Assembly: GCF_000526495.1 (NCBI RefSeq) | Contig: NZ_JAGE01000001.1 | Location: 2,538,001 to 2,602,000 of the forward strand | Length of the DNA stretch: 64,000 nucleotides | Direction of reading: 5' to 3' | From: Ruminiclostridium josui JCM 17888 | Lineage (GTDB): Bacteria; Bacillota; Clostridia; Acetivibrionales; DSM-1351 | Shown here: positions 23,762 to 55,483 of the stretch, one piece after another | Layout: each line of letters opens with the position of its first letter | Position numbering within the stretch: position 1 is the stretch's first letter | Program-made: the position numbers and the translations under genes | The notes under the pieces: model-generated | The model's input: only the letters and a program-made list of their open reading frames with translations | Told to the model about the DNA's origin: nothing | Database searches by the model: none

Positions 23762-23792
23762 ATAATTAATAATTTTGAAAGGGGTTATTTTA

Positions 23793-25043: not shown

Positions 25044-25064
25044 TAATTATAGATATGTTTTATC

Positions 25065-25108
25065 TGCCGGAACCTATACTGCAATTCAATGACAGTTAGT
25101 TTCCGGCA
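25065..25108 (+). promoter_or_regulatory. Intra-operon hairpin
   Basis: TGCCGGAA (25065-25072) and TTCCGGCA (25101-25108) are perfect complements, with a possible inner stem. No strong T run follows. It may lower read-through or stabilise RNA between the two radical SAM genes. Confidence 0.45.
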
Positions 25109-25141
25109 TAAATTCTTTTAAGTTAGGTAGGGGGATAAGTA

Positions 25142-38574: not shown

Positions 38575-39888
38575 ATGAAACATTTGTATAAAAACAGTAA
38601 TAAATACTACTTGCTTGATTCCGGGCAAATGCGATTCTATGTAATACCCGATAATTTGTCCTCTCTGTTAGACACTTATAATTCCCAAGAACTGGATAAA
38701 GCTGCGAAACAGTTTAATTTACCCGGTTCTGAGGAACATATTTCAGAAATAATCAAAGAAGACCCTCAAAAATGTAAGCGTTTAATTTTAAACATAAGCG
38801 AAGTCTGTAATTTATCTTGTAAATATTGCTATGCCCACGGAGGGAATTATAAACAAGATTCTTATATGAAGAATATGTCGTTGGATACGCTGAAAAAAGT
38901 TGTGGCACGAACTTGTGAGCTTTATCCCCATGGAATATCTCAAATTCAGTTTTTCGGTGGTGAACCCTTATTAAATAAAGAAGTTCTCTTTTCAGGAGTA
39001 GAATGGATTGAGAACTATTTTAAAAGTTTAGGTCTGGATTGCCCAATATTTACTATGGTTACAAATGGGACATTGATTGACGAAAAGTGCATTGCTATAT
39101 TTAATAAATATTTTGAGTCTGTAACTTTAAGCTTAGATGGTTCGAAGCAGGTTAATGACCAAAAGAGAATTTATAAGGACGATCCTTCTTCTGTATATGA
39201 GCGTGTTGTGGATGTAATTAATCTGATGAATAAGGATAAAAGAGAGTTCTATATCTGTATAGAAGGTACTATTCACGAGGGGCATATCCGGGAATTTGAA
39301 GAGAAGAAGAGCATGGAATCATTTATAGCACTAAAAAACCTCGGGGCAGATATTATACATATTAGTCCTCTAATAGGAGACACGGGTATTAGCTGTGATT
39401 GCGGTAAAGCATATTGCGATTTTTTTGAAGCATGGGTGAAGGAAGAATTTAAGAGTGGAATAGAAAATACAAAAACCAGGACAGTAGCCAGTCTTTTATA
39501 TGCAGCAAAGCAGAGAAAAGCTTATGGAAATGGCTGTGGTGCTACAGAAACTGATCTTGCCACTGATGTGGATGGAAAAATGTATCCTTGCTTTATGTTT
39601 ATTGGTGAGCAGAAATTTTCACTTGGCTATGCTTTTGATGACTTGGCATTACAACAGGAGAAGCTTCTAAGTATAAGAGAATTGTTGCGTCAGGCCAATG
39701 ATAATACGGAGTGTAATAATTGTTGGGTGAAACCCATATGTTCTAAAACCTATGGACACTGTATAGGAGCCCGTTATCTAACAAATGGAGATATATCCAG
39801 ACCTATTAAAGAGGTTTGTGATATTAGTAAATGCGTAATTGAGAATATTTTTGTTGAATCCTACAATATGTATGGAATTAAGAGATAA
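38575..39888 (+). CDS. Radical SAM peptide maturase with SPASM domain
   Basis: This 437-residue enzyme has a short N-terminal region (1-60), possibly leader-binding, then the radical SAM motif SEVCNLSCKYCYAHGG (C78, C82, C85), FFGGEPLL and LSLDGSKQVND. The C-terminal SPASM/twitch region is Cys-rich: GNGCGATETDL, MYPCFMF, ECNNCWVKPICSKTYGHC and EVCDISKC, enough for two auxiliary [4Fe-4S] clusters. Such enzymes install thioether or C-C links, epimerise, or oxidise residues in ribosomal peptides. It opens the operon, 16 kb before three Cys-X-Cys precursor peptides. The likely targets are the core residues of those peptides; the type of link is unknown. Confidence 0.88.
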   Translation: MKHLYKNSNKYYLLDSGQMRFYVIPDNLSSLLDTYNSQELDKAAKQFNLPGSEEHISEIIKEDPQKCKRLILNISEVCNLSCKYCYAHGGNYKQDSYMKNMSLDTLKKVVARTCELYPHGISQIQFFGGEPLLNKEVLFSGVEWIENYFKSLGLDCPIFTMVTNGTLIDEKCIAIFNKYFESVTLSLDGSKQVNDQKRIYKDDPSSVYERVVDVINLMNKDKREFYICIEGTIHEGHIREFEEKKSMESFIALKNLGADIIHISPLIGDTGISCDCGKAYCDFFEAWVKEEFKSGIENTKTRTVASLLYAAKQRKAYGNGCGATETDLATDVDGKMYPCFMFIGEQKFSLGYAFDDLALQQEKLLSIRELLRQANDNTECNNCWVKPICSKTYGHCIGARYLTNGDISRPIKEVCDISKCVIENIFVESYNMYGIKR

Positions 39889-39890
39889 AT

Positions 39891-41081
39891 ATGGAAAATA
39901 TAACTGATCTACCAATAACTGATAAAAATCGAATCAAGCCCAAACTAAAGGGTTCTGTATACACTAATGATATCTTTATCAATAAAAAGGGAGAGGGATA
40001 TTGGGTAATCGGAAACCTTGAGCAAGATACACAGTTTATGTTACCTGCTCATCAAAAGGGCAGTTTTGAGCGGGTTAGTGCCTTGTTGGATGGTAATCAT
40101 ACGATAGCCGATATATCCAGGAAGGCAGGTATTCGGGAAAGTGAGATTGAAAATATTGTCCGAATTTTAAGAGGAAAGGGACTCATCGAAGAGGATGATT
40201 CTGCACCGGTTCGATTTAACGAGGTGGACAATTTTTCAATAAAATTAATTAATTATAACTTTAGGGATATTAAAGACAGAAAAAAATCGCAGAGAACTGC
40301 CAAAATACTGTCAAACATATTGGTTATCGCATTTGCTTTGGCTTTTGTTTTATTTTTTATACTGAATGTTAACAATGGATTTTCAATATTTCGAAAAACA
40401 AGCATTAATCATTGGCTGAACTATGGAAATGGTTCATCAAACAGTTGGTTGGGCTACCTTTTAATTAACGGTGGCATGATATTAATGTTTGTATTTCATG
40501 AAATAGGGCATGTAGTAGCAGGAATACGATGTGGCGTACAACCACAGAATTTTTCCTTAGTACTTTACTTCGGAATCATTCCTATGTTCTATGTTAAAAA
40601 TAAAAATATATACTCTTTAAAAAAGAGGGATATTCTTAGGGTTTTGTTTGCAGGAGTATTTTTAAATTTGTTACTTTGCTTTGTATTCCTTAATTTGTTT
40701 TTGGTAACGGAATATGAATTATATAAAATTTTAGCTTTATCAAATTTAAGAATATTTTTAATTAATCTTAGTCCTTTATCATTGAGTGATGGTTATTTTA
40801 TTTTTACGGTAATACTTCGTCACCCTAATTTAAGATATAAGCTGCATCAGTTTTGGTCAAAACCATCAAGCATATTTAAATATAACCTTATAGAAGTGGT
40901 GTATTCACTGTTATCCACGTTGATTATGATGGGAACTATGGGTATCGAAATAATATGGCTATTAAGTTTGTTCCCGATTTCATCAGGTTTAAGGAATGTT
41001 TTAGTGATATTAGTATTATTTTTATATTATGTAGGGTTGCACCTCTTAGAAAAAAGAAAGTTTAAACATCTTAAAGTATGA
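39891..41081 (+). CDS. PqqD-like domain fused to M50-family membrane zinc protease
   Basis: This 396-residue protein has an N-terminal PqqD-like winged helix (about 20-105: GSFERVSALLDGNHTIADI, IENIVRILRGKGLIE), the RiPP recognition element type that binds leader peptides. It is followed by about eight membrane segments with the metalloprotease motif FHEIGHVVAG (H203, E204, H207) and a later NLSPLSLSDGYF, where an Asp supplies the third ligand. The arrangement resembles YydH, the membrane protease of the B. subtilis yyd peptide system. It starts 2 nt after the radical SAM gene. Probable role: bind the leader and cut it in the membrane during export. Confidence 0.82.
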   Translation: MENITDLPITDKNRIKPKLKGSVYTNDIFINKKGEGYWVIGNLEQDTQFMLPAHQKGSFERVSALLDGNHTIADISRKAGIRESEIENIVRILRGKGLIEEDDSAPVRFNEVDNFSIKLINYNFRDIKDRKKSQRTAKILSNILVIAFALAFVLFFILNVNNGFSIFRKTSINHWLNYGNGSSNSWLGYLLINGGMILMFVFHEIGHVVAGIRCGVQPQNFSLVLYFGIIPMFYVKNKNIYSLKKRDILRVLFAGVFLNLLLCFVFLNLFLVTEYELYKILALSNLRIFLINLSPLSLSDGYFIFTVILRHPNLRYKLHQFWSKPSSIFKYNLIEVVYSLLSTLIMMGTMGIEIIWLLSLFPISSGLRNVLVILVLFLYYVGLHLLEKRKFKHLKV

Positions 41082-41110
41082 ATAAGTATTGAGGAAAGGA
41101 AAATTTAAAA

Positions 41111-43579
41111 TTGAAAAAAATATTACAAGTATTATTAAAGAACAAGAGAGCAAAAGATTATAAGCTTTTATTATGCAGGATAACGGTAGTTGTTACAAGC
41201 TTGACTTTGTTTACAGCATTAAATGCCCTTCCCTTATTAGAAGAATCAATAAAACAGGACTTGAGACAAACAACAGTTGGGGAAGCAAATTATATTGTTA
41301 CACATTCAGCTAATGAATTGTTTAATAAATTTGCAGTAGACAAAGGTAAAAAGCTCGATGTCTTGTCGCTTAATGCAAGTATAGCGGGACAAAAAAATAC
41401 AAAGATTAATGTATGGGGAACTGAATACAGTACTTTCCTTGAGGTGTTTGGTAATACATACACTGAACGAGGAGAGGTTTCTTTCCCAACTGCATTAAAA
41501 GATAATGAAGTGTTAGTATCTCCTAAAATTGGTGAAAGACTCAATATATCTGACGGTAGTAAAATCGACATTGAATTATTTGGCCAAAAGTTGTCAGCTA
41601 CTGCTGTAATCGCCCCAAAAGACAATTACTTTGTTAAGGCCAATGAGAATTTAGTTGTTTGTAATCCCGGTATTTTATACGACACTCTTAAAATAAGCCC
41701 TGAATCAATTACCCTCTGTTTTTTATATGATATTCAAAAGGATAGCAATACAATAAAGAAATTAGAAGAGAATAAAGATACCTTTTACATAAAAGATGCG
41801 ATTGACCCTGAGTATATTTCTTCTAATATGGCAACTTATTATGGCATAGATTTTATGATTTTCATATTTATCCTATTGATAGCAATTGATATCCTTAAAT
41901 CAACCGGGCTGATATATGTTACGGAACGTTCTAAATTTATAGGAACCCTCCGTAGCAATGGTGCAGAGAAAAAGAATATAGTGAGTCTTTTTTCAAGGAT
42001 TGGGTTAAACATTTCTCTGACAGGTTGCATTTTAGGTATGTGTATCGGATTGGCATTGGTAATCTTATTTGCTAAGTTTGGCATAGGAATACCAAATCCA
42101 TTTGTAGTAATTGATATAGTCTTTTTGATAGTTTCTATAATAATAACTTTAGGTGTAACTGTACTTATTTCAAGAATAAGTTTTGTCAAACCGGTTAAAC
42201 AATTGTTGAAAAAATCTGATAGAAGCTTAATTCTTGAAGATGTATCAAAAAGTATGCAGCAAGAAAGTAATAGCAAATATGCTTTAATATATCCTACTCT
42301 TCTTGTATTATTGTTTATTTTGGGATTTTGGATTTCAAATTGGGGAGTGGCAGTGGTTTTACTCTATTCTGTAGCTTTAGTCTTTGTGTTGCTTAAAAGT
42401 GTAAAGGTTATTTTTACAGCTTTTAAGAACAGAATAAAGGAAAAAACAGGTAAAGGGTTATTGCGTATTTCTTCGAAAAATGTGGGAACTAATATTTATT
42501 TGAGAAAAACCCTTAAACTTACTGCAACTATTTCTTTATTTATAACTATAGTTGGCGTATTAATATTTTCAGTACTTTCGGCTATGACAAGTTTTTATAA
42601 AGACTATAGATCTGATGCCTTTGTCAGGTTAGATGATGGAACCTTCAAAAAGGAAGAGCTGGCCGCAATTAGCTCGGCACCTGGTGTTACAGACACATTT
42701 ACATACTACAGCGGGAAAGTAACCATTATTAATTCAGACGAAAAACGCCAGGTAAGTGTAATAGGTATAGATGATCCTGAGACTTATGATAAAAACTTTT
42801 TCAACTTGAAGCTAACATGGTTAGATGGCTTTGAGCCTGCTATGTTTAATAAGAGTGAAAATGTGATTATGAGTAAAATTATTTGTAATCGATTTGGATT
42901 TAAACTTGGTGACAAAGTTAAACTGAACGACGGTAAAATAGATAAAAACTTTACTATTGTTGCTATGACCCCAAGTTTACAGGAACTGGGGGACATGGTG
43001 TACATTTCAAGACATGACAGCGATTTTTGTGAAGGTAGTATACTGAATGGGGTTTACATAAAATGCAAAGATACAGAATCCCTGGAAAAATCCGTCGAAG
43101 ATATTTTTTATAATAGAAACTACAGATATAAAGATGTTTCACAAATGAAAGAAAATGACATAACCAATGGTATGCAGATTATTATCTTCTTTTTATCTTT
43201 TGCAGCATTGGTTGGAATGGCTAGTATAACCGGAATATATAGCAATTATAAATTAAGTTATATAATGAGAAAAAAAGAATTTGCTATTTTTTACTCAAAT
43301 GGGTATAGCAGACAGCATATATTAAGAATGCTTATTTCTGAGATAGCTATCATAAGCACACTTGGATATTTAGCGGGAATACTGATTCTCTGGATAGTCA
43401 AAAAACCATTGGAAAACCTTATGGAGTTAGTGGAGCTGCCAATTAAGCTAAGTATGAAAGCAGAGGTATTTTTAGCAATGCTCCTTGTTGTTATAGCTAT
43501 GATGTTAATTAATATAGTATTAGCATGCAAAACAAGTCGGATATCAAGAGACAAAATTATTGAGGAATTAAAGAAGTAG
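41111..43579 (+). CDS. FtsX/MacB-type ABC transporter permease
   Basis: This 822-residue membrane protein has the duplicated FtsX architecture: an N-terminal helix, an extracytoplasmic domain (about 45-235), three helices (about 245-355), another pair (about 395-430), a second extracytoplasmic domain (about 490-690) and three C-terminal helices. The start is TTG behind GAGGAAAGGA. With the ATPase encoded 18 nt downstream it forms a MacAB/LolCD-like complex that exports or expels peptides, here presumably the mature product, providing export and possibly self-immunity. Confidence 0.85.
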   Translation: MKKILQVLLKNKRAKDYKLLLCRITVVVTSLTLFTALNALPLLEESIKQDLRQTTVGEANYIVTHSANELFNKFAVDKGKKLDVLSLNASIAGQKNTKINVWGTEYSTFLEVFGNTYTERGEVSFPTALKDNEVLVSPKIGERLNISDGSKIDIELFGQKLSATAVIAPKDNYFVKANENLVVCNPGILYDTLKISPESITLCFLYDIQKDSNTIKKLEENKDTFYIKDAIDPEYISSNMATYYGIDFMIFIFILLIAIDILKSTGLIYVTERSKFIGTLRSNGAEKKNIVSLFSRIGLNISLTGCILGMCIGLALVILFAKFGIGIPNPFVVIDIVFLIVSIIITLGVTVLISRISFVKPVKQLLKKSDRSLILEDVSKSMQQESNSKYALIYPTLLVLLFILGFWISNWGVAVVLLYSVALVFVLLKSVKVIFTAFKNRIKEKTGKGLLRISSKNVGTNIYLRKTLKLTATISLFITIVGVLIFSVLSAMTSFYKDYRSDAFVRLDDGTFKKEELAAISSAPGVTDTFTYYSGKVTIINSDEKRQVSVIGIDDPETYDKNFFNLKLTWLDGFEPAMFNKSENVIMSKIICNRFGFKLGDKVKLNDGKIDKNFTIVAMTPSLQELGDMVYISRHDSDFCEGSILNGVYIKCKDTESLEKSVEDIFYNRNYRYKDVSQMKENDITNGMQIIIFFLSFAALVGMASITGIYSNYKLSYIMRKKEFAIFYSNGYSRQHILRMLISEIAIISTLGYLAGILILWIVKKPLENLMELVELPIKLSMKAEVFLAMLLVVIAMMLINIVLACKTSRISRDKIIEELKK

Positions 43580-43597
43580 GAAGAAAGGAAGAGTAAA

Positions 43598-44260
43598 ATG
43601 GAGATAATTAGAGCAGAAGGTTTAAAGAAGATATATAAAGCAGGGGTTGTTGAAACAGAGATAATAAAAGGAATTGACTTATCTATCCAATCAGGTGAAT
43701 TTGTAACTATTACCGGACCTTCAGGTTCAGGGAAAAGTACACTATTGTATTTACTTAGTGGTATGGAACCATTAACAGAGGGAAAAGTACTGTTTAATAA
43801 TGAGGATATATCTGAAATGGATGATGCAAAACTATCATTAATCAGAAGGAAAGATATGGCGTTTGTTTTTCAGTTTTATAATCTTCTGACAGAGATGAGC
43901 GTAACAGATAATGTATTACTGCCTTCATTGATTATGACAAACCCCTTGGATGATTCCCGTTTGCAAAAGATGCTGCAATTAGTAGGTTTGGAACAGTATG
44001 GAAGCAAGTATCCATATGAGCTTTCCGGTGGTCAGCAACAACGTGTTGCAATTGCCAGGGCACTTTATACTAATCCAAAGGTAATATTTGCAGATGAACC
44101 TACAGGTAATTTGGATTCCGTCAACAGTAAAAAAGTTATGGATATTTTTAAGCAAATAAACGAACAGACGGGAATAACCATTGTAATGGTTACACATTCC
44201 CCGAAGTATGCAGATTATGGTACACAAAAAATATATCTGGAGGATGGAAGAATATGCTGA
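43598..44260 (+). CDS. ABC transporter ATP-binding protein (MacB/LolD type)
   Basis: This 220-residue ATPase has Walker A GPSGSGKST (about 40), Q-loop FVFQFYNLL, signature LSGGQQQRVAIARAL and Walker B VIFADEPTGNLDS with the LolD-type tail. It overlaps the next gene by 7 nt and follows the permease directly, so the two make one exporter. Confidence 0.93.
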   Translation: MEIIRAEGLKKIYKAGVVETEIIKGIDLSIQSGEFVTITGPSGSGKSTLLYLLSGMEPLTEGKVLFNNEDISEMDDAKLSLIRRKDMAFVFQFYNLLTEMSVTDNVLLPSLIMTNPLDDSRLQKMLQLVGLEQYGSKYPYELSGGQQQRVAIARALYTNPKVIFADEPTGNLDSVNSKKVMDIFKQINEQTGITIVMVTHSPKYADYGTQKIYLEDGRIC

Positions 44261-45336
44261 CGCATAATATTCCTACAAGGATAGATTTAGAGTTTAGCAA
44301 GATTGTAACACCCCGAGAACTGGGAGATTGCAGAACACAAGCATTCTGTCTCATGCTTAACCACTATGGCTACAAAATTACCACACAGGATATATTTGGT
44401 ATAGGTAACGGGTTAAGTTTCTTGATTCAGAAGGTAAATTACAACGGCTTTGATTTAATGGCCCTCTCAGGCAGGAATTTTGAAGCTGAGATGAAATGTT
44501 GTAGCACTATAGGGGCTTTGTGTGAAGAAAAAACCTTTGAATATAACCCTAATATTGAAATGGAACAGATTCCATTTCATATGGAGATAATTGAAAAAGT
44601 GGCAGAGGGTCATCCAGTTTTACTACAATGCGATGTATACTATATGACTTATCTCACCAATATTAAGAGAAATCATAATGAATATCATATGGTCATCGTT
44701 TTAGGTTATGATTTAGATAAAAAAGAACTGACTGTTTTAGATAGTGTTTCAAATGACATACATAAGATTGATATGCATCAGATGTATAAGGCCATGTTTG
44801 AAAAGCAGTATGATGAAGAAAAGAAGCCCAGATGGTATGTTTTTGAAAAACTCACAAAAAAAGAACAACTAGTAAGAATTAGCTCTGACATATATATAAA
44901 ATCACTATCAGAACAAGGTAAATATATGAATGAAAAGGATGGGCCTTTGGAAAGCATGAAGACAATACATGAATTCTTAATGTCCATCCGCAAAAGAGCA
45001 GAAATGGGTTCTCTAAGCCATGAAAAGTACCTTGCATTTACAATTGAAATGAATAGCATAATGCTACGACGACAGGATGAGCTCAATGGGACATGCTTTA
45101 GAAGTCTTTACATAAAATTTTTGAAAGACATGTTTGAACAGAAAATAATTGAACGGGAAAAGTGGACAAGTCTGGTCAGAATTCTGAATGATTTGGAAGA
45201 CAAATGGAAAATAATAACCTTTAAAATCAGATATTTTAAAGGCTCTGTTATAGAAAAAAGTGATATTTTTCTTAGTGCTTTAGAGCAAATTTATAGTCTG
45301 GAAAAAATATTGACAATGGAACTGATGAATATTTAG
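44254..45336 (+). CDS. BtrH-like Cys-His acyltransferase or papain-fold peptidase
   Basis: This 360-residue protein has LGDCRTQAFCLMLNHYG (C26) near the start, EYHMVIVLGYD (H145) and LTVLDSVSN, the Cys-His-Asp order of C39/papain-fold proteins and of the BtrH N-terminal domain. BtrH moves an aminoacyl chain from an acyl carrier protein onto an aminoglycoside amine. The next gene here is an acyl carrier protein, so acyl transfer from ACP to the peptide is attractive; leader cleavage like a C39 peptidase is the alternative. The C-terminal half (about 215-360) is helical and unrecognised. It overlaps the ABC gene. Confidence 0.65.
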   Translation: MLTHNIPTRIDLEFSKIVTPRELGDCRTQAFCLMLNHYGYKITTQDIFGIGNGLSFLIQKVNYNGFDLMALSGRNFEAEMKCCSTIGALCEEKTFEYNPNIEMEQIPFHMEIIEKVAEGHPVLLQCDVYYMTYLTNIKRNHNEYHMVIVLGYDLDKKELTVLDSVSNDIHKIDMHQMYKAMFEKQYDEEKKPRWYVFEKLTKKEQLVRISSDIYIKSLSEQGKYMNEKDGPLESMKTIHEFLMSIRKRAEMGSLSHEKYLAFTIEMNSIMLRRQDELNGTCFRSLYIKFLKDMFEQKIIEREKWTSLVRILNDLEDKWKIITFKIRYFKGSVIEKSDIFLSALEQIYSLEKILTMELMNI

Positions 45337-45348
45337 GGGGTATTTAAG

Positions 45349-45660
45349 ATGCAAGAAGAATTAGAAAAGATGATGAAAGAAATCAGGGAGATGATACAGG
45401 ATAGATTAATGTTATCCTGTGAGCCGGAGGATATTGATGTAGATGCCCTTATTTTCGAGGTTGAAGGAATAGATGAAGAACATAAAAACCTACCTAACCT
45501 GGGGCTGGACTCTGTTGACGGATTAGAAATTATGGTTGGAATCAAAAACTTATATAATGTAAAACTTGATGCAGAGAAAGAACCGCAAGCGTATAAGTCG
45601 GTAAGGACATTGGCAGAGGCAGTTTATAATCATTTACATGAAAAAGAATGTGAGGGTTAG
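45349..45660 (+). CDS. Acyl carrier protein
   Basis: This acidic 103-residue protein carries LGLDSVDGLEIMVGI, where the Ser (about residue 56) takes the 4'-phosphopantetheine arm. It is slightly longer than FabC-type ACPs because of an N-terminal helix. It precedes the ketosynthase by 1 nt. It should carry the growing acyl chain for the KS/CLF/dehydratase/ketoreductase set and hand it to the BtrH-like protein, the NRPS or a thioesterase. Confidence 0.9.
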   Translation: MQEELEKMMKEIREMIQDRLMLSCEPEDIDVDALIFEVEGIDEEHKNLPNLGLDSVDGLEIMVGIKNLYNVKLDAEKEPQAYKSVRTLAEAVYNHLHEKECEG

Positions 45661-45661
45661 T

Positions 45662-46903
45662 ATGTCAAACAAAAAGGTATCTGTTGTGGTTACTGGAGTG
45701 GGTGCCGTCGCTCCAAATGGTAAAAATGCCAGAGATTTTTATCAAAACTGTATTTCGGGAGTAACCGGCATTCGTGAAAGCTCAGTAATGAAAGATTTTA
45801 ATTACATGACAAAGTATGCGGGTGAAATAGTAACGGATAAGCCTTTGAGATGGGAATCAAAGTTCAGGGAAATCGGGGAACGGGCTTGTGCGGATATGCT
45901 TGAGGATGCTCAAATAAGTAAAGAGTATATTGAAAAACTCAAGGAACGGGCAGTTTTCAGCTTGGCTTCAGCTAATCTTGGAAGTCTGCGGTTAGAGCCA
46001 CTATTGCGAATTAAGTATGGGTTCGATTATACAGGAATTACATACGATCCCGGTGAGTACATAAAAAGTAACTGTAGCATGCTGGATTTTAATTCTGCTG
46101 ATTGCTTTTATCATTTTAGTAATATCCTCGGAATAAGTGGCAACGTAATGGGTGTAAATGCGGCATGTGCCTCAGGAACCCTTGCTATTGGAGAGGCAGT
46201 AAGAATGATTGAGACCGGTCGTGCAGATATGGCAGTTACAGCAGGTATAGATGTACTCAGTGATTTAAGCTTGGCAGGATTTAATTCCTTGGAAAATTTA
46301 AGTACAACACCATGTAAACCTTTTGATATAAACCGTGAGGGCATAACAATTGGCGAGGGCGCTGCTTTTATAATGCTTGAACGTGAAGACTTAGCCCTAC
46401 AAAGGGGTGCAAAGATTTACGGAAGAATATTTGGTTTTGCTTCGATGAATGAGGCTTACCATGTAACTGCCCCTGATCCCAGTGGTAAAGGTGCATTTTT
46501 CTGTATGAATAAAGTTTTGGAAAAAATAAAAGGCTTACAGGGAAAATCTTTATATATCAATGCTCACGGTACCTCTACTTCTGTCAATGATGCCATGGAA
46601 ATCAAAGCAATGGAATTACTCAGCCAAACTCATAAAATAGATCATCTTTGGTTTTCATCAACAAAGTCAATGATTGGACATTGTCTGGGTGCAGCAGGAA
46701 GTTTAGAGTTTGTGTGCTCTGTCATAGGACTTAAAGAGGGTACTATGCCGGTCTCTATTTCGGTGGAAAACCCTATGGAATATGATAATAAAATTATGAC
46801 TCTTGTAACAGATAAATCGAAATCAAGGCAATACGACCTGTTTTTATCTAATTCATTTGCTTTTGCCGGGAATATGGCATGTATCGGAGTTGAACAACTT
46901 TAG
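45662..46903 (+). CDS. Beta-ketoacyl-ACP synthase (KS alpha, FabF-like)
   Basis: This protein of about 413 residues keeps the full condensing triad: Cys169 in VNAACASGTLA, His in INAHGTSTSVND and His in MIGHCLGAAG. I start at ATG 45662 (MSNKKVSVVVTGVGAVAPNG). With the catalytically dead partner encoded two genes later it looks like a KS/CLF pair of a type II PKS. It probably builds a short or polyene acyl chain by decarboxylative condensation. No malonyl-ACP transferase is in the cluster, so FabD from primary metabolism must serve. Confidence 0.92.
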   Translation: MSNKKVSVVVTGVGAVAPNGKNARDFYQNCISGVTGIRESSVMKDFNYMTKYAGEIVTDKPLRWESKFREIGERACADMLEDAQISKEYIEKLKERAVFSLASANLGSLRLEPLLRIKYGFDYTGITYDPGEYIKSNCSMLDFNSADCFYHFSNILGISGNVMGVNAACASGTLAIGEAVRMIETGRADMAVTAGIDVLSDLSLAGFNSLENLSTTPCKPFDINREGITIGEGAAFIMLEREDLALQRGAKIYGRIFGFASMNEAYHVTAPDPSGKGAFFCMNKVLEKIKGLQGKSLYINAHGTSTSVNDAMEIKAMELLSQTHKIDHLWFSSTKSMIGHCLGAAGSLEFVCSVIGLKEGTMPVSISVENPMEYDNKIMTLVTDKSKSRQYDLFLSNSFAFAGNMACIGVEQL

Positions 46904-46930
46904 GCGTATCAGAAGGAGAAAGATAGGAAT

Positions 46931-47371
46931 ATGAAGATTAACATTCTCGAAATTATGAAACACAGATATCCGTTTCTTTTAATAGACAAGGTAATAGACT
47001 TTGAATACCTTAAATCAGCTAAGGTTATTAAAAATGTAAGTTATAATGAACCCTGGGTTCAAGGCCATTATCCAAACCACCCAATAATGCCCGGTGTACT
47101 GCTGATAGAGGCTATGGGGCAGGCTAGTGCTTTTATAACTATAGATTTTAGTAAAGAAGAAACTAAACCTAAATATGGATACCTTATAAAAGTAGATAAT
47201 GTTAAATTTGTCAGGCCTGTTTATCCGGGAGACCAAATAGTGATTTCTTCAAAACTGATAGAAATGGTTGATAATTACATTTGTATTCAGTCAGTTTGTA
47301 GGGTGGACGATAAGGTTGTTGCAAAATGTAAACTTACCTATATTTTAAAGGAGGAGAATGATGAGTTGTAA
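46931..47371 (+). CDS. FabZ-like 3-hydroxyacyl-ACP dehydratase
   Basis: This 146-residue hotdog-fold protein carries MKHRYPFLLIDKV and the active-site helix GHYPNHPIMPGVLLIEAMGQ with the catalytic His and Glu. Length and motifs match FabZ. With the ketoreductase but no enoyl reductase nearby, the chain would be left with trans double bonds, as in polyene-type products. It overlaps the next gene. Confidence 0.92.
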   Translation: MKINILEIMKHRYPFLLIDKVIDFEYLKSAKVIKNVSYNEPWVQGHYPNHPIMPGVLLIEAMGQASAFITIDFSKEETKPKYGYLIKVDNVKFVRPVYPGDQIVISSKLIEMVDNYICIQSVCRVDDKVVAKCKLTYILKEENDEL

Positions 47372-48554
47372 TAAAATCTGGATAAATGATTTTGACATAC
47401 AAAGTCCCGTTATACCAATAGGCCGTGATATAACAGATACATTATTCAATCCAAAAGAGAATTGGGTTTCAAAGAGGCAATTTGATTTTGCAGCATTAAT
47501 AGGCCCCTACAGAAAAGATGTTCGTAGAATGAATAGAACCTCTACCTTAGGATATCTTTCTGCTACTTCGATTATGGAAAAAAGCGGGCTTGCAAAAGAA
47601 TCCTTTGACCCATACGGATTTGGCACAGTTTTTTCTACAACCAATGCAAGCTATGAGAGTGTTCTGGCTGTTTTAAACAGCCTATATCAAAAGAGTATAG
47701 AAGATGTTAGCCCGATAAATTTTACATATTCTGTTGGGAATTCGCTGATTTCAGGAATTACTATGAAGTATGGTCTAAAAGGACCAAGTACAATGCTGCC
47801 CTCTACTGAGCCATTATTGGTTGCATCAATGATTTTGGAGCAAGAGGATGCAGAAAGGATTCTTGTTGGTAATTACAATATTTGTTTAGACGATAACCTG
47901 AATTTCTATAGACAGTTTGACTACCTACAGGGTGATGATCAGCATTTCACCGGTATATTAGAGGCTGCAAAGGGAATGGTAATTCGTGAACAGGCAGTAA
48001 GCTTGGTTTTAGAGAGTGATGCTGTACATACCGGAAAGGAAGGCTGTGTTTTAGCCGGTTTGTCAATAAAACGAAAAAAGAAAATAAATAGTACACTTGC
48101 CCAAGGTCAAATGAAGAATATGACTTCCGCATATGATGTAAATAGTTTTGTTGAACTATCTCACTTCTCACCTGAGGATTTTGAAGAAACAATAAAACTT
48201 GCTTTATCTGAAGCAGGAGTAGCAGCGAGTCAAGTAGATGCAGTAATTATGTGTTCTTGCGGGAATCCCGGTCTGGATAATGCAGAATATAAAGCGGTAT
48301 CTTCATTAATTCCTGATGCCAAAATGGTTTCTGTACATGGTATCTTTGGAAGTAACTTTGGAAGTAGTTTTATGTTAAATTGTGCTGTTGCTGTAGCCAG
48401 CCTCCAAAAACAGATGCTACCTCCGTCTGAGGGAGTTATAGACAGTAAGGGCAGATTTACAACTAAAACAGAGTCACTAAACCTCAAAACAGTTCTTGTA
48501 AATGGGTATAACGATTTGGGGAATATGATAACAGGGGTAATAAAATGGAACTAG
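47361..48554 (+). CDS. Ketosynthase-like chain-length factor (KS beta) lacking the active-site Cys
   Basis: This protein of about 397 residues has the thiolase fold, but the nucleophile position reads GPSTMLPSTEPLLVAS with Ser/Thr and no Cys, and the HGT motif is replaced by CSCGNPGLDNAEY. The C-terminal VHGIFGSNFGSSF replaces GHxxGAAG. This is what KS-beta/CLF partners of type II PKS show: they dimerise with KS-alpha and set chain length. It overlaps FabZ by 11-14 nt and the ketoreductase by 10 nt, implying a fixed stoichiometry. Confidence 0.8.
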   Translation: MSCNKIWINDFDIQSPVIPIGRDITDTLFNPKENWVSKRQFDFAALIGPYRKDVRRMNRTSTLGYLSATSIMEKSGLAKESFDPYGFGTVFSTTNASYESVLAVLNSLYQKSIEDVSPINFTYSVGNSLISGITMKYGLKGPSTMLPSTEPLLVASMILEQEDAERILVGNYNICLDDNLNFYRQFDYLQGDDQHFTGILEAAKGMVIREQAVSLVLESDAVHTGKEGCVLAGLSIKRKKKINSTLAQGQMKNMTSAYDVNSFVELSHFSPEDFEETIKLALSEAGVAASQVDAVIMCSCGNPGLDNAEYKAVSSLIPDAKMVSVHGIFGSNFGSSFMLNCAVAVASLQKQMLPPSEGVIDSKGRFTTKTESLNLKTVLVNGYNDLGNMITGVIKWN

Positions 48555-49294
48555 GATTAAAGGGAAAAGTCGTTTTAATAAGCGGAGGTAGCAGAGGAAT
48601 AGGCGAAGCACTGTGTGAAGCCTTTGCAGGTGAAAATTGCAGAATATATTTTCTCTACAAAAGCAATTCTGATTTAGCAAAACAGGTTGAAAAAAGGATT
48701 AAAGAGACATATGACGGAGTATTTATTCAGGGCATTAAAGCAGATATTACGAATTCCTTGGAGTGTGAGTCTGTAACACAGACAATAGTTGATAAAGAAG
48801 GCTCAATTGATATTTTAATAAATAATGCAGGAATTATACAGGATGGATTATTTTTAATGCAAAGCGCAGAAAAGTGGGAGTCAGTGATAAAGACAAACCT
48901 ATTTGGGAATGCAGCTTTAACCTCAGCAGTAGCACTGTCAATGTTTTCAAACCGAAAGGGTAACATTATTAATATATCATCTACAGCCGGAATTATAGGA
49001 GTTAAAGGGCAAACGAACTATTGCGCTGCAAAGGCTGGAATAATAGGCTTTACTAAAGCTCTATCAAAAGAATTAGGAATGAAAAATATCAGAGTAAACG
49101 CAATTGCTCCTGGATATATAGAAACTGATATGACAAGTAATATCAAGAATTTAAAAGATATAAGTACAAACATTCCACTAAGAAGATTAGGACTTCCGCA
49201 TGAAGTTGCCAAAACAGCAGTATTCCTTTCTTCTGATGCTGCCAGTTATATTAATGGAGCAACTATTGTTGTAGATGGCGGTCTAACTGCTTAA
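48545..49294 (+). CDS. FabG-like 3-oxoacyl-ACP reductase
   Basis: This 249-residue short-chain dehydrogenase carries the NADPH loop SGGSRGIGEAL, ILINNAG, the catalytic Ser-Tyr-Lys in NISSTAG and YCAAKAG, and PGYIETDM. It reduces the beta-keto group made by the KS pair. It overlaps the CLF gene by 10 nt. Confidence 0.93.
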   Translation: MELGLKGKVVLISGGSRGIGEALCEAFAGENCRIYFLYKSNSDLAKQVEKRIKETYDGVFIQGIKADITNSLECESVTQTIVDKEGSIDILINNAGIIQDGLFLMQSAEKWESVIKTNLFGNAALTSAVALSMFSNRKGNIINISSTAGIIGVKGQTNYCAAKAGIIGFTKALSKELGMKNIRVNAIAPGYIETDMTSNIKNLKDISTNIPLRRLGLPHEVAKTAVFLSSDAASYINGATIVVDGGLTA

Positions 49295-49317
49295 TAACCA
49301 AAAGTGGGGGGAAGAAA

Positions 49318-52300: not shown

Positions 52301-52491
52301 CTTTGTACATTCAGATTACTGAACATAAAGACAGTATGACACTTTACTTCCTATTTGCCGACTCTATATATTTGGATAGTGATAAAAAGAGAATTTCGGA
52401 AGAGTATTTATCATGCTTAGAAAAATGGCTAAAGTGTTTGACAAACGAGCGGTGGGATAGGAGTAACAATGGAAACCTCACTAGGGGATAA
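49318..52491 (+). CDS. Nonribosomal peptide synthetase, A-T-C module
   Basis: This 1057-residue protein has an adenylation domain (about 10-525) with A3 YVMFTSGSTGKPKG, A5 NAYGPTEVC, A7 YKTNDCGKF, A8 GRNDDQIKIRGHRIEL and A10 NTNGKLDK. A thiolation domain (about 540-620) carries the pantetheine Ser564 in GATSLEVF, and a condensation domain (about 650-1045) has HHGIFDY (H754-D759, HHxxxD). The order A-T-C is unusual for a stand-alone protein: the tethered amino acid acts as donor for an acceptor amine supplied in trans, or the C domain takes acyl from the ACP. The loaded amino acid cannot be read reliably. No thioesterase domain is fused. Confidence 0.9.
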   Translation: MQDEEYYDLGISGTFRTAVDKYKNNIAISDADGTLTYQEMYEMSLRIASRLSKLEGWNREVIVAVDLPKSRELILLMMAIYQAGGAFLPIARTSPKMRMISMLQDGRAEIFISDSNDRMDTLDFNIKKVPLCNLISNLMEETPVSENISEQRGNKLAYVMFTSGSTGKPKGIMVLQSSVVHIARACYSRFFGLPEDASIEKLQTITKEYIKIGILCEFSFDPSVVQMYMALFFGHCVVLVPDEVKRSQWQLIEYWKNQKVDMCDITPTHLKHILLYFENDREKLFLPGNIVSVGEPLSLALLKKLLSSGQVDNVINAYGPTEVCVYCNAKVYNSKDISGIKHVSVGKPLDEYRIYILDQYGKPLDQGEIGEIYTASRFLSLGYIGREDLTQKSFFKDTLESGHMMYKTNDCGKFDDTGELICLGRNDDQIKIRGHRIELSEIENVLVNCGLFEEVHVLAKEDEDSQKQIIAFYRGQRVDEETINKKLGEYLPEYMLPKLFVQVERFITNTNGKLDKADLLSRIEFKKSVSNSKDERNILELCRNVLNNEAVSIQDNFFEQGATSLEVFVLNTRIYQEWGVVLNNSLLYECETIEQIGNLIQSELNKSHSDTSNIINKEEAVKATEFQCKILRSENQLYKNKSFDKFSKKFPPFNVVYRVSHSNYLENEQFKSAIESMSERHRILRSRFYSNNGNVWIKSENKAVTDYSYLVVDDIEKVDFYDYIRRFICTELPLFQVLLFEDRNKNQEILLNFHHGIFDYLSLSIFLNEIFMLYYNMQLPPYNYDFYEYRKELVKSDNALLQEFWNKYLQNRPKSVGFPGDGENKRMKIKKDETFSGIKHELNNDEIIVLRKICKEMKISLFNLTSTVLAQILYESTGQSDICIGTIQHGRMQQLSGVSNSIGLFAELIPLRFMFHSNQSVQDKLLIQQKLLDQTLKNQGLGMHDFYLMQDFEERLKGDYFKVVINYHTDYRSVLPQGKGDLCAVEIGQYAESIPLYIQITEHKDSMTLYFLFADSIYLDSDKKRISEEYLSCLEKWLKCLTNERWDRSNNGNLTRG

Positions 52492-53191
52492 GGTTGTAGT
52501 GTATTTATTGGATGTCAGAGAGTTTAATGATAAAGAGTGGCATTTTTATAAATCAAAAAGCACGTGGCTACCGGGCTCTTGCCGGCAAAAGATAGAAAAA
52601 AACCTGCACAAAACTAATAGGAACCTTAGCTTAATGGGATGGATTCTTTTCCTTATGTTTGTTGGGTACCCATTAGGTATAAAGGAGGATAAAAAAATAC
52701 AATTTGGAAAATATGGCAAGCCCTATATATTAAACAGTAATATTCATTTTAACATAAGCCATAGTTACCCTTGGGTTTGTTTAGCAACTTCTTACACGAG
52801 TGTTGGGGTTGATATTGAATGTAAATCTGTTTCAGACCCATGCCAGGTACTTGATAAATTCTCGGACAAGGAGAAGGCGTGGCTTGTAGGGGAGAGTGCA
52901 GATAATCCGGAGGTAATGAAAGGTCGATTTAGGATGCTGTGGAGTGCAAAGGAGGCTTGGCTGAAATATCTGGGCTGTGGTCTGAAAGGTATAGGTATGG
53001 AATTACCGTTCGCACTTACTGCTTCCGGCGGTTTATATAATAGTGTTGACCAGGATGGAAAAAAGCTTTATCTTAATCAGAATTTATTGTCTGATAAAGA
53101 GGTATTAAGTATATGTTGCGAATCGGAGGCCTGTGAGTTAAAGAATATAACTGCTGTGGAAATAAAGAAGTTCTTTATGAATTGGGAGTGA
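52469..53191 (+). CDS. Sfp-type 4'-phosphopantetheinyl transferase
   Basis: This 240-residue protein carries the Mg/CoA motifs GVDIECK and FRMLWSAKEAWLKYLG (WxxKEA), plus FNISHSYPW. It activates carrier domains, here the stand-alone ACP and the NRPS T domain. The gene overlaps the NRPS end by 23 nt, so the two are translationally coupled. A cluster-borne PPTase supports the view that the operon works as a self-contained carrier-protein pathway. Confidence 0.93.
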   Translation: METSLGDKVVVYLLDVREFNDKEWHFYKSKSTWLPGSCRQKIEKNLHKTNRNLSLMGWILFLMFVGYPLGIKEDKKIQFGKYGKPYILNSNIHFNISHSYPWVCLATSYTSVGVDIECKSVSDPCQVLDKFSDKEKAWLVGESADNPEVMKGRFRMLWSAKEAWLKYLGCGLKGIGMELPFALTASGGLYNSVDQDGKKLYLNQNLLSDKEVLSICCESEACELKNITAVEIKKFFMNWE

Positions 53192-53194
53192 TAT

Positions 53195-53716
53195 ATGATG
53201 CTGATATCTACACATTGTATTGAACATACAGTAACTTTTTCGGAATGTGATTATTTTGGAACGGTCAAGAACTCTAGCTGTTTGTGCTGGTTTGAGGATG
53301 CCCGTTTTCAGATTAGCCTGATAGCCGGAATACAGGGATATTTTTTACCGGAGCATAGGAGTCAGACAACACTCGATAAACAACCAAATGACACTGAAGA
53401 ATACTATACTATGCCTGTTCTTCAAAATAGCTTGGAGTCATATAAAGAGATACGGTTCGGAACAGAGATTCTGGTTCATACATGGTTAGAAATGCCGATA
53501 GCTGCGTATTGTGTGTTTCATCATTATATAACCTCAAAGGATTGTAAGACTGTTTTTTACAAGTGTGATACCACAATTGGTCTTGTAGGACAAAAATCGG
53601 GCTTAATTAAAGATATGCCAAATGATATGTACAATAGAATAATTTATTTTATAAAAGATATTCAAAACGAATTTTCAAAATACAATCTGGAGATAGATGA
53701 AAATGAAGGATTTTGA
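53195..53716 (+). CDS. 4HBT-type hotdog thioesterase (first)
   Basis: This 173-residue protein has the 4-hydroxybenzoyl-CoA-thioesterase-like start, VTFSECDYFGTVKNSSCLCWFEDARFQ; the Asp of CDYFG is the usual catalytic acid. Similar proteins release acyl chains from ACP in aryl-polyene and type II PKS clusters. It overlaps the next thioesterase gene by 20 nt. A non-hydrolytic acyl-transfer role is possible. Confidence 0.8.
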   Translation: MMLISTHCIEHTVTFSECDYFGTVKNSSCLCWFEDARFQISLIAGIQGYFLPEHRSQTTLDKQPNDTEEYYTMPVLQNSLESYKEIRFGTEILVHTWLEMPIAAYCVFHHYITSKDCKTVFYKCDTTIGLVGQKSGLIKDMPNDMYNRIIYFIKDIQNEFSKYNLEIDENEGF

Positions 53717-54062
53717 AGTCGAAATGACTACCGGGATATTTGATTGTGATGCCTATAAAATAGTGCACAATGCCAGATATATTGAATGGTATGAACAGGC
53801 GCTTTATATGTACTGGACGGAAAAACTAGGTGCTGACTGCTGGGAAAATACAAGGTTAAAAATTAAGAAAATACGATGCAGATATATTAGTGCTTTAAAA
53901 TTCAATGATGAATTTAAAATCATAACAACTCTATCAAGCGATAAAACTGATGACAATAAGTACCATTTTAAACAAAAAATAGTTAAATTAATAACCTTAC
54001 AGACTGTTAGTATCAGTCAGGGGATTGTTTGCATAAATTGCAGGAAAGAAGTGCAACTATGA
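53697..54062 (+). CDS. 4HBT-type hotdog thioesterase (second)
   Basis: This 121-residue hotdog protein has MTTGIFDCDAYKIVHNARYIEWYEQAL, with the Asp and the HNARY turn of the 4HBT family. It is slightly short at the C-terminus (usual 130-140). It overlaps both neighbours: 20 nt upstream and an ATGA overlap downstream. The pair of thioesterases may act as a heteromer or on different acyl groups. Confidence 0.78.
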   Translation: MKMKDFEVEMTTGIFDCDAYKIVHNARYIEWYEQALYMYWTEKLGADCWENTRLKIKKIRCRYISALKFNDEFKIITTLSSDKTDDNKYHFKQKIVKLITLQTVSISQGIVCINCRKEVQL

Positions 54063-54796
54063 AAATATTATTATTCAACTGCAGTATAAAAAAGAAAGCC
54101 AGTAGAAGTTTAAAGATTGCAAATTCATTTATTGAGGGGTTAAACCAAAATATAAATATAAGAGAAGAAATACAAGTAAATGAAATAACACTTTATGATA
54201 AGAACATAAATGATTGTAGGTGCTGTTACTACTGCTGGTGCGAAGAAGCATCAGGCAAATGTATACAAAAAGATGATATGCGGGATTTACTTAAAGAGTA
54301 TATAGACAGTGATTTAGTAATTTGGAGTTTTCCACTGCTTTTCTTTAGTTTTCCTGCTGCTATGAAAAAATTTATTGAGAGAACCTTTCCCTTGTACACA
54401 TGGCAAAAACATAGGGAAGGTGATTACTACATTCAGTCTAGTCGATATCCAAAGTTATTAAATCGCAGAGAGGTATTTATATCAACTTGCGGTTACCCTC
54501 ATCGCACAAACAACTATGAACCGGTGGATGAAACATTAAGAATACTTTTTGGAGATAAGGCCGATAGAATTTTTTGTACACAAGGAACTCTTTTTGATGA
54601 AGAAAGATTTGAAAAAATAGTTAAGCGATACTTAGAAGCAGCCAAAAATGCGGGTAAAAACTACTCTCTTAAAGACGGGATAACAAAAAAGGACAATGAC
54701 AGATTGTCTCAACAATTTTTAATAGAAGAATTATATTATGAAGAGTCTAAAAGAAACAACAAGTGGTTAATCAGGAAGGACTACCTTAATTTTTAG
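54059..54796 (+). CDS. Flavodoxin-fold NADPH-dependent FMN reductase
   Basis: This protein of about 245 residues starts at ATG 54059 in an ATGA overlap. It has KILLFNCSIKKKASRSLKIA (FMN phosphate loop) and a Cys-rich patch NDCRCCYYCWCEEASGKC (about 56-74), then SFPLLFFSFPAAMKKFIER. It is related to iron-sulfur flavoprotein and WrbA/NADPH-FMN reductases; the Cys patch may hold an Fe-S cluster. It could reduce the radical SAM enzyme's clusters or act on the peptide thiols. It is the last enzyme before the precursor genes. Confidence 0.78.
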   Translation: MKILLFNCSIKKKASRSLKIANSFIEGLNQNINIREEIQVNEITLYDKNINDCRCCYYCWCEEASGKCIQKDDMRDLLKEYIDSDLVIWSFPLLFFSFPAAMKKFIERTFPLYTWQKHREGDYYIQSSRYPKLLNRREVFISTCGYPHRTNNYEPVDETLRILFGDKADRIFCTQGTLFDEERFEKIVKRYLEAAKNAGKNYSLKDGITKKDNDRLSQQFLIEELYYEESKRNNKWLIRKDYLNF

Positions 54797-54835
54797 GTTT
54801 AAAATATATTCTTTTGCGAAAGGAGGATATAAAAT

Positions 54836-54949
54836 ATGGACATCAAAAAACTCGAAATGGATTTAAATGAAGTTGAATTCAACTTCAATGTAGAGGACCT
54901 TGAGGATGTAGTAACTCCAGGTAGCGGATTTGGTTGTGCGTGCAGCTAA
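54836..54949 (+). CDS. RiPP precursor peptide 1 (tip GCACS)
   Basis: This 37-residue peptide is translated from ATG 54836 behind AAAGGAGGA. The acidic leader (KLEMDLNEVEFNFNVEDLED) is followed by VVTPGSGFGCACS. The L-E-x-V-x-x-P-G/S-G stretch looks like a double-glycine-type cleavage region, so the core may be only SGFGCACS or FGCACS. It begins 39 nt after the reductase. The two Cys are the obvious targets for the radical SAM enzyme or for acylation. I know no described family with this exact core. Confidence 0.85.
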   Translation: MDIKKLEMDLNEVEFNFNVEDLEDVVTPGSGFGCACS

Positions 54950-55008
54950 TCCAAATTGTACGGCTTTAAGAAAATCAAATTATTAATAAACGAAAGGGGG
55001 ATAAGATT

Positions 55009-55125
55009 ATGGAAAACATGAGAAAACTGGAAATGGACTTAAATGAAGTTGAGTTCAATTTCGACGTAGAAGATCTAGAGGACATTGTAACACCAGGTAG
55101 TGGATTTGGTTGTAATTGTAATTAA
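55009..55125 (+). CDS. RiPP precursor peptide 2 (tip GCNCN)
   Basis: This 38-residue peptide has a leader nearly identical to peptide 1 (RKLEMDLNEVEFNFDVEDLE) and the C-terminus IVTPGSGFGCNCN. It has a CGAAAGGGGGATAAG ribosome site shared with peptide 3, showing local duplication. The changes between copies fall in the first few residues and at the X of C-X-C and the last residue, which is how RiPP core variation looks. Confidence 0.85.
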   Translation: MENMRKLEMDLNEVEFNFDVEDLEDIVTPGSGFGCNCN

Positions 55126-55174
55126 TACATATTTAAGAAAACAGGATTATTATAAACGAAAGGGGGATAAGAAT

Positions 55175-55288
55175 ATGAAGGACATCAAAAAACTCGAAAT
55201 GGATTTAAATGAAGTTGAATTCAATTTCAATGTTGAAGACCTGGAGGATGTAGTAACACCAGGAAGCGGTTTTGGTTGTGACTGCTAA
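55175..55288 (+). CDS. RiPP precursor peptide 3 (tip GCDC)
   Basis: This 37-residue peptide has the same leader as the other two (KKLEMDLNEVEFNFNVEDLE) and ends VVTPGSGFGCDC with no residue after the last Cys. It shares with peptide 2 the upstream stretch TATAAACGAAAGGGGGATAAG, apart from the first bases. Three copies in tandem at about 170-nt spacing suggest either a mixed product or a multi-component peptide. An in-frame TTG extension upstream (55100) is not needed. Confidence 0.85.
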   Translation: MKDIKKLEMDLNEVEFNFNVEDLEDVVTPGSGFGCDC

Positions 55289-55372: not shown

Positions 55373-55483
55373 TTGGAAACTAATAGATTAATTTTACGTC
55401 CATGGGAAGAAGAGGATGCTGAAGAATTATACAAATTTGCAAAAGGCCAAAGAGTAGGGCCAAAACCTATGAGGTTGTACTAA
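55373..55483 (+). pseudogene. GNAT acetyltransferase N-terminal remnant
   Basis: A 36-codon frame from TTG 55373 reads [19 protein letters not shown], the typical start of RimJ/RimL-type GNAT acetyltransferases, then stops. The next ~100 bp give only scraps. The rest of the gene is deleted. It could once have been an N-acetyl tailoring or immunity gene of the cluster. Confidence 0.6.

Follow-up and report, generated by a model that had tools for sequence, protein, structure and literature searches.

Positions 38575-55288 (+) of the window, i.e. of the whole stretch of 64,000 nucleotides analysed here (G000:C1:2538001-2602000, strand +, from the genome of Ruminiclostridium josui JCM 17888, which comprises 4,465,602 bases in 2 contigs), hold an operon that combines genes for a ribosomally synthesized and post-translationally modified peptide (RiPP) with those for a type II polyketide synthase (PKS) and a nonribosomal peptide synthetase (NRPS). 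The product is probably a ribosomal peptide that is modified by a radical S-adenosylmethionine (SAM) enzyme and capped with a lipid. There is good evidence that the two halves of the operon form a single heritable unit, and it is very likely that they also serve one pathway.

Gene content and precursor peptides

The operon consists of 15 genes and three near-identical precursor genes, whose open reading frame (ORF) positions have been checked and whose order is that of Table 1, the PKS/NRPS block being nested between the BtrH gene and the precursor genes. Of the 17 junctions, seven are overlaps and none leaves a gap of more than 59 bp, confirming the tight spacing of the original prediction and refining its count of about 16 genes. 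As to internal regulatory signals, 74 sigma-70-like sites (76.0 expected from shuffled sequences) and 6 terminator-like sites (8.2 expected) are found. The domain labels assigned earlier agree with Pfam apart from two. The SPASM label of the radical SAM enzyme finds no Pfam SPASM domain match, and what favours it are NCBIfam radical SAM/SPASM maturase matches below cut-off together with the C-terminal cysteines; the PqqD label of the M50 protein finds no PqqD model match, and is left with a weak resemblance of the modelled N-terminal domain to leader-binding domains.

The three small Cys-X-Cys peptide genes predicted at the end of the operon are borne out as RiPP precursors: they are short, combine a conserved leader with a variable core and have relatives that recur beside homologous enzymes in other genomes, a recurrence which argues against chance ORFs. 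Each is preceded by a GGAGG- or GGGGG-like site, and precursors 2 and 3 are 81% and 97% identical to precursor 1, respectively; precursor 1, the one scanned, has no Pfam or NCBIfam model match. For the third precursor the mechanically called ORF with its GTG start at 55100 is too long, and the ATG at 55175 was taken as start.

Table 1. Genes of the operon, with their positions in the window and the Pfam matches of their products
Feature	Position	Strand	Pfam match or remark
Radical SAM enzyme, 437 residues, SPASM-type, CxxxCxxC motif (C78/C82/C85), Cys-rich C-terminus	38575..39888	+	PF04055, 51 bits
M50 intramembrane metalloprotease with N-terminal winged-helix/RiPP recognition element (RRE)-like domain	39891..41081	+	PF02163; RRE resemblance weak
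FtsX/MacB-type permease, 822 residues	41111..43579	+	PF02687 (twice), PF12704
ATP-binding cassette (ABC) ATPase	43598..44260	+	PF00005
BtrH-like papain-fold protein, proposed carrier-protein:peptide acyltransferase	44254..45336	+	PF14399, 69.7 bits
Acyl carrier protein (ACP), motif LGLDSV	45349..45660	+	PF00550
Ketosynthase (KS-alpha), Cys177/His310/His348	45638..46903	+	PF00109/PF02801
FabZ-like dehydratase	46931..47371	+	PF07977
Chain-length factor (CLF)-like KS partner, without catalytic triad	47358..48554	+	PF00109/PF02801, weak
FabG-like ketoreductase	48545..49294	+	PF13561
NRPS, adenylation-thiolation-condensation (A-T-C), 1057 residues	49318..52491	+	PF00501, PF00550, PF00668
4'-Phosphopantetheinyl transferase (PPTase)	52469..53191	+	PF01648
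4HBT_2 thioesterase-like protein 1	53195..53716	+	PF13279
4HBT_2 thioesterase-like protein 2	53697..54062	+	PF13279
Flavodoxin-fold oxidoreductase with Cys cluster	54059..54796	+	PF02525/PF03358 (Flavodoxin_2/FMN_red)
Precursor 1, core ...VTPGSGFGCACS	54836..54949	+	
Precursor 2, core ...VTPGSGFGCNCN	55009..55125	+	
Precursor 3, core ...VTPGSGFGCDC	55175..55288	+	

Co-inheritance of the peptide and polyketide genes

A scan of GTDB species genomes with an alignment of the radical SAM enzyme gave at least 80 loci; among the matches listed, only L015 and L019 have a KS match (E<=1e-3) and only L015 has an NRPS match. L015 belongs to the metagenome-assembled genome of Clostridium sp. SIG253 (G813), and its radical SAM enzyme is 43% identical over residues 2-437. 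Here, the genes for radical SAM enzyme, M50 protease, FtsX, ABC, BtrH, ACP, KS, FabZ, CLF, FabG and NRPS follow the order of the window, succeeded by two other genes and the flavodoxin-fold gene, and the two precursors (VTPGYGFGCNCQ, VTPGYGFGCACS) lie upstream of the enzymes, whereas those of the window lie downstream. An M50 profile run on 206 genomes of G813's family found 9 places in 8 genomes. Among them, G871 is collinear with the window, without the PPTase, and has two precursors (ending in VTPGSGFGCDCN and VTPGSGFGCNC), and G852 carries the same set split over two contigs, with the precursor ends VTPGSGFGCACN. The cores of G813, G871 and G852 read GYGFGC[A/N]C or GSGFGC[A/D/N]C, and a homologue of the flavodoxin-fold protein is present in the clusters of G813 (35%) and of G871 and G852 (45%).

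A CLF profile, built from the proteins of the window, G813 and G871 and run on 225 genomes of G813's order, gave 49 matches at E<=1e-15. Five of these score above the FabF proteins, i.e. G871, G852 and G813 (724-633 bits), G920 (128 bits) and G989 (107 bits), the next match reaching 83 bits, and all five sit in clusters with radical SAM, M50 and precursor genes. G871 and G813 had contributed to the profile and had been found via their peptide enzymes, so that they are no test of co-occurrence, and G852 stands outside the profile and was known from its M50 protease; the clusters of G920 and G989 were found from the CLF alone. The original prediction had named a PKS/NRPS block without radical SAM and precursor genes as the case that would speak against it. 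No such block is among the five top matches from the 225 genomes, and the 15 inspected of the 44 lower matches are FabF-like (they score higher as KS than as CLF and have the active-site Cys pattern), the other 29 scoring lower; the fused KS-CLF of C. hydrogenum (L019 in G974) escapes the profile.

The diverged KS-CLF clusters of G920 and G989 contain genes for a radical SAM enzyme, an M50 protease, an ABC protein and tandem precursors that end in Cys (ATPVFVGTAGCCA and ATPVFVGTSGCCS; VTANWTGCANCCN and VTASWTGCASCCS, respectively). According to Pfam, G989 also encodes an A-T-C NRPS, a PPTase, a biotin carrier and acetyl-CoA carboxylase domains, and G920 acetyl-CoA carboxylase domains, which suggests a dedicated malonyl-CoA supply. 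The carboxylase genes lie inside the clusters, at L140:882-4386 and L139:4211-6253. A PPTase candidate picked by eye in G920 (L139:6404-7138) was rejected, as it has no Pfam match at E 0.001 and no NCBIfam match at 1e-15. The cluster of C. hydrogenum comprises an ACP, the fused KS-CLF, a protein in the position of BtrH, four precursors, a radical SAM enzyme, an M50 protease, FtsX and ABC, and L141 of the same genome holds no further PKS or NRPS gene.

Both halves of the operon have also diverged in step. Across six clusters the pairwise identities of the radical SAM enzymes correlate with those of the M50 protease (r 0.99), ABC (0.98), KS (0.96), CLF (0.95), FabG (0.95) and ACP (0.86), and only 1-5 of the 720 label permutations give values as high, the true order counted (KS 2, CLF 1, FabG 4). 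Since the close pair G871:G852 weighs heavily, G852 was removed; computed from rounded identities, the correlations are then 0.97 for M50, 0.95 for ABC, 0.86 for KS, 0.81 for CLF and 0.89 for FabG (1-3 of 120 permutations; KS 1, CLF 2, FabG 2). As common descent could also give rise to such correlations, gyrB was used as control, rpoB being unusable for this purpose (no match in G813 and only a fragment in G852). The radical SAM enzyme and gyrB correlate with r 0.36 (114/720) and, without G852, with r 0.01 (56/120). In gyrB, G813 and G871 are 91.5% and the window and G871 66.4% identical, the window standing at 66-68% from both, whereas the cluster proteins of the window and G871 are closer to each other than those of G813 and G871, in the peptide half (radical SAM enzyme 51% v 45%, M50 46% v 36%, ABC 65% v 60%) as well as in the polyketide half (KS 54% v 47%, CLF 49% v 31%, FabG 59% v 50%). 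Thus, RiPP and PKS genes appear to travel together, and horizontal transfer of the whole gene set would be the simplest reading of these comparisons. The gyrB control strengthens the case for one unit, and two clusters that are neighbours by chance were rejected on the grounds of co-occurrence, co-divergence and a discordance with gyrB that is common to both halves. The view of the original prediction that this is one hybrid operon is upheld by this co-divergence and by the near-collinear gene sets of G813, G871 and G852.

Further searches with single proteins or profiles found few relatives: in counts each including the genome of R. josui itself, the radical SAM enzyme alone found matches in 2 of 58 genomes of the order (E<=1e-50) and in 1 of 398 genomes of the phylum (1e-45), the CLF in 1 of 391 genomes of the class (1e-12) and the M50 profile in 4 of 391 genomes (1e-40). 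Among 72,556 plasmid records there were 2 weak matches to the CLF and 2 matches to the radical SAM enzyme with less than 30% identity.

A possible acylation pathway and its alternatives

The best NCBIfam match of the radical SAM enzyme of the window is the PapB model NF047865 (156.8 bits), which is also the best match of all seven other radical SAM enzymes scanned (160-221 bits). All of these scores lie below the curated cut-off of 340 bits, and a plain PapB ranthipeptide maturase was thus rejected, as were a SCIFF maturase (TIGR03974, 143.9 bits vs 425) and, for the M50 protein, the epipeptide protease YydH/LiaK (NF058609, 40.3 bits vs 225) and the daptide intramembrane protease (NF041824, 58.2 bits vs 300). 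By analogy, a PapB-like thioether formation would be the nearest guess for the radical SAM reaction. In the M50 protease the HExxH residues H203, E204 and H207 and the distal D300 are invariant in 9 aligned homologues, and M50 proteases act on other RiPPs, epipeptides included (PMC10885120). Its structural model has a pLDDT of 58 as a whole and was used for the N-terminal domain only, which weakly resembles the leader-binding domains TbiB1 and lasso B1 (the three best Foldseek rows have a probability of 0.98-1.00 but E 0.24-0.41).

The polyketide genes encode a type II PKS, i.e. a discrete KS with a Cys-His-His triad (present in 7/7 KS compared), a partner without it (absent in 7/7 CLFs compared), a discrete ACP, a ketoreductase and a dehydratase. 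A, T and C domains all exceed their Pfam cut-offs in a single NRPS protein, the core motifs of which are found in five homologues, with HHGIFDY and the T-domain serine present. In all five homologues the adenylation pocket has D or E at the position that we take to align with residue 278 of GrsA, which hints at a basic substrate of the A domain. None of the operon's genes was found to encode an enoyl reductase; the acyl chain may thus be a polyene but need not be one, because a reductase of the host could act on it. A polyene pigment alone was rejected as product, as it leaves the precursors, the radical SAM enzyme and the M50 protease unexplained.

In G004, G959 and G379 the stretches seen hold the peptide module together with BtrH and neither KS nor CLF, which makes the PKS look like an interchangeable source of acyl groups that has been added to a RiPP core. 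The stretch seen of G004, a member of the genus of R. josui, encodes BtrH, five tandem precursors (VTPACGGGCG[A/G]GC), a radical SAM enzyme (38%), an M50 protease, ABC and FtsX and gives no match to a PKS or NRPS. In G959, where the stretch seen has no KS, five precursors (VTPGSGFGC[N/T]C or ...CNCP) are accompanied by a radical SAM enzyme, an M50 protease, BtrH, FtsX, ABC and a fusion of AMP-binding and PP-binding domains that, by eye, looks like a fatty acyl-AMP ligase (FAAL). G379 combines BtrH_N with two precursors (VPGGSGFGCDCKGAL, VPGGSGAGCNCKTGL), a radical SAM enzyme and an M50 protease. G1017 has BtrH_N and an M50 protease with no radical SAM enzyme beside them, and G961 and G974:C2 have a radical SAM enzyme and an M50 protease, no BtrH match, and cores like [A/V]TPSFGFGCPHGWFG[A/G]YC[N/H]. 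Related precursors at L109:7527-8022 and L115:7857-8006, with the core VTPSFGFGCPHGWFGGYCH or close to it, lie beside radical SAM and M50 genes with no BtrH match and are a sister peptide family.

The BtrH_N model (PF14399, cut-off 29.7 bits) is exceeded by the protein of the window and by seven relatives, including that of G379 (32.4 bits), and Cys26, His145 and Asp163 of the papain-like site are invariant in 6 aligned homologues. The DarH model NF053550 reaches 71 bits, below its cut-off of 300, and a profile search of the PDB yielded two matches (best E 0.12). BtrH itself is listed in a review as an ACP:aminoglycoside acyltransferase related to C39 peptidases (PMC10318531), and its family has been named among transacylase-like enzymes that possibly remove fatty acyl groups from ACP (PMC2922099). 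By analogy, the BtrH-like protein may be the joining enzyme of the pathway, mainly because peptide and BtrH are constant in close relatives while the acyl source varies: cores of the type GSGFGC[N/T]C and BtrH stand beside the AMP-ligase:carrier fusion in G959, and ACP with a fused KS-CLF takes this place in C. hydrogenum.

Based on this gene content, we speculate that the radical SAM enzyme recognises the leader and acts on the GSGFGCxC core, probably by forming a cysteine thioether. ACP, KS-CLF, FabG and FabZ would assemble an acyl chain, which may be a polyene, the PPTase of the operon would activate the carriers, and the A-T-C protein would load an amino acid and link the acyl to the aminoacyl group on a carrier protein. 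BtrH would then take this group, acyl or acyl-aminoacyl, off the carrier protein and attach it to the peptide of 8-9 residues, a step suggested by the BtrH family and by the donor swapping between clusters. The M50 protease may cut the leader at or near VTP, and, as the core of the window contains no Lys, the acceptor would most simply be the new N-terminal Gly; the FtsX/ABC pair may finally export the product or confer immunity. We consider this mechanism somewhat more probable than not, whereas the complete scheme, in which BtrH caps a thioether peptide with an N-acyl-aminoacyl (possibly polyenoyl) group in a radical SAM RiPP:type II PKS:NRPS hybrid and in which the BtrH:peptide core is a platform for different acyl sources across Clostridia (full PKS-NRPS, KS-CLF-ACP alone, AMP-ligase-carrier or a host pool), has about an even chance of being correct.

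Several observations weigh against such a pathway or its uniformity. Without G852 the correlation of ACP with the radical SAM enzyme is weak (r 0.50, 12/120 permutations), and ACP lacks the discordance with gyrB (window:G871 45% v G813:G871 50%). The PPTase and the two thioesterases are missing from some clusters, the stretches seen of G974 and G920 contain no NRPS, and in G004 and G379 the stretch seen retains BtrH and reveals neither a KS nor an NRPS or ligase. KS/CLF genes accompany four of the nine M50 places (one on a second contig) and are absent from the stretch seen in another four, the ninth, in G943, lying on a contig of 3,390 bases that is too short to tell. PF14399 misses the BtrH-position proteins of the PKS-bearing G974 (L019), G920 (L139) and G989 (L140), which are similar by profile-profile comparison only (E 1.2e-10), and among seven aligned BtrH-position proteins L019 has lost the catalytic His and L113 (G1017) has Ser in place of the Cys; these misses and lost residues count against a uniform mechanism. 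Finally, the AlphaFold model of BtrH is poor (pLDDT 46), and, being papain-like, BtrH could be a peptidase.

The loci with a peptide module and no KS/CLF in the stretches seen (G004, G959, G379) also fit an alternative in which one promoter drives two independent products, i.e. a radical SAM peptide and a separate PKS/NRPS metabolite such as an acylated amino acid or a polyene, which might act together non-covalently as a two-part antimicrobial, and the A-T-C NRPS and the thioesterases could indeed release a free acyl-amino acid. We regard this as rather unlikely, since all five CLF matches above the FabF scores in the 225 genomes lie in peptide clusters, the divergence common to both halves is absent from gyrB, and BtrH, whose family consists of transfer enzymes, stays with the peptide even when the acyl source changes. 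Less likely still is that BtrH serves as leader peptidase or transpeptidase and that any acylation falls to the NRPS C domain, acting directly on the amine of the peptide. BtrH_N is papain-like, with C39 as a near relative (PMC10318531), the BtrH proteins give weak Peptidase_C39_2 matches and occur in loci without a visible acyl source, and the terminal C domain, having no module after it, requires an amine as acceptor; however, the clusters already have an M50 protease, G920 and G974 have a PKS and no NRPS in the stretches seen, and the characterised BtrH moves acyl groups off a carrier protein (PMC10318531). An acyl group on a core Cys or Ser, or on a non-peptide acceptor such as a lipid or sugar, with another role for the peptide, for example as signal or regulator, is very improbable: the cores contain much Cys and G[S/Y], thioesters might be edited by the 4HBT proteins and an agr-type signalling gene follows downstream, but G813 has Tyr in place of the Ser of GSGFGC, which is hence not essential, and no gene for acceptor synthesis was recognised among the 15 operon proteins.

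Neighbouring genes and related systems

Just downstream of the operon lies a gene for AgrB (PF04647; 55609-56238, +), and 2 kb beyond it a 47-residue peptide (58130-58273, +; ...STACCSSYYQPKAPKHL...) looks AgrD-like by eye. An AgrB-like protein is also encoded near the G920 cluster (L139:3227-3844; NF002210, 161 bits vs cut-off 282), and the G004 cluster (L013:4764-6823) is adjoined by genes for a GHKL histidine kinase (Pfam) and, by eye, a response regulator-like protein. Quorum control of these clusters is therefore worth considering. Between the precursors and AgrB a broken remnant of a GNAT acetyltransferase gene can be seen by eye (55373-55483, +). Upstream of the operon a GDSL-like hydrolase (37379-38269, +) carries a type I dockerin, and the host therefore has cellulosome-type proteins. 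Further features of the window are an A-rich ORF of 1296 residues without Pfam match (4589-8479, +; AT skew 0.32-0.45) and a gene run at 17618-26614 (+) that is possibly another pathway, encoding a pyridoxal phosphate-dependent decarboxylase, three proteins of 359-360 residues, the first of which (the only one scanned) matches U32 peptidases, a HAD hydrolase, a UPF0004-type radical SAM protein and a B12-binding radical SAM protein.

Ribosomal peptides joined to acyl chains made by a PKS or a fatty acid synthase are known from lipolanthines and goadvionins (PMC10435860), which depend on lanthipeptide synthetases of class III and on acyltransferases of the GNAT type (PMC10435860, PMC13060382); the operon shares the joining of polyketide and RiPP and has a radical SAM enzyme, BtrH, a discrete KS-CLF and an NRPS instead. 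A GNAT-type lipo-RiPP was rejected, as none of the 15 operon proteins has a lanthipeptide synthetase or GNAT Pfam match. Lipoavitides and selidamides are likewise acylated RiPPs, namely lanthipeptides that carry the acyl group at the N-terminus or at a side chain and receive it from GNATs (PMC13060382). The BtrH/BtrI pair of butirosin and DarH-type systems resemble the operon in having BtrH_N and an adjacent carrier gene, but the acceptor in the operon would be a peptide and not an aminoglycoside. Epipeptide (Yyd/Epe) operons share the radical SAM enzyme, the M50 protease, the ABC transporter and a short precursor with the operon and differ in the core. To our knowledge, Yyd operons contain no BtrH, PKS or NRPS, and lipoavitides and selidamides involve neither a radical SAM enzyme nor an NRPS module. 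PapB ranthipeptide maturases, which target Cys-x3-Asp, resemble the enzyme of the window in their NCBIfam family match and in the short, Cys-rich core, which in the window is CxC. Aryl-polyene and flexirubin-like clusters have the same set of ACP, KS, CLF, FabG, FabZ and 4HBT genes, which in the operon is joined to a RiPP and an A-T-C NRPS; we know of no peptide precursor in these clusters. A BtrH-like gene is listed for the arcuflavin DAR cluster (PMC3949708).

Among the titles and abstract openings listed in searches of the open-access literature, none describes a radical SAM peptide combined with a type II PKS, an NRPS and BtrH. Polyketide:RiPP hybrids as such are already known, and what is new is limited to the triple combination and the proposed role of BtrH. 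Taken together, the operon unites three biosynthetic logics in Clostridia, which are little explored for natural products, and points to a papain-like carrier-protein acyltransferase that would lipidate ribosomal peptides and is unrelated to the GNATs of known lipo-RiPPs. The swapping of acyl sources next to a constant peptide and BtrH makes it possible to test directly how pathways of the RiPP and carrier-protein kinds become connected, and such an enzyme may become a tool for placing chosen acyl groups onto ribosomal peptides.

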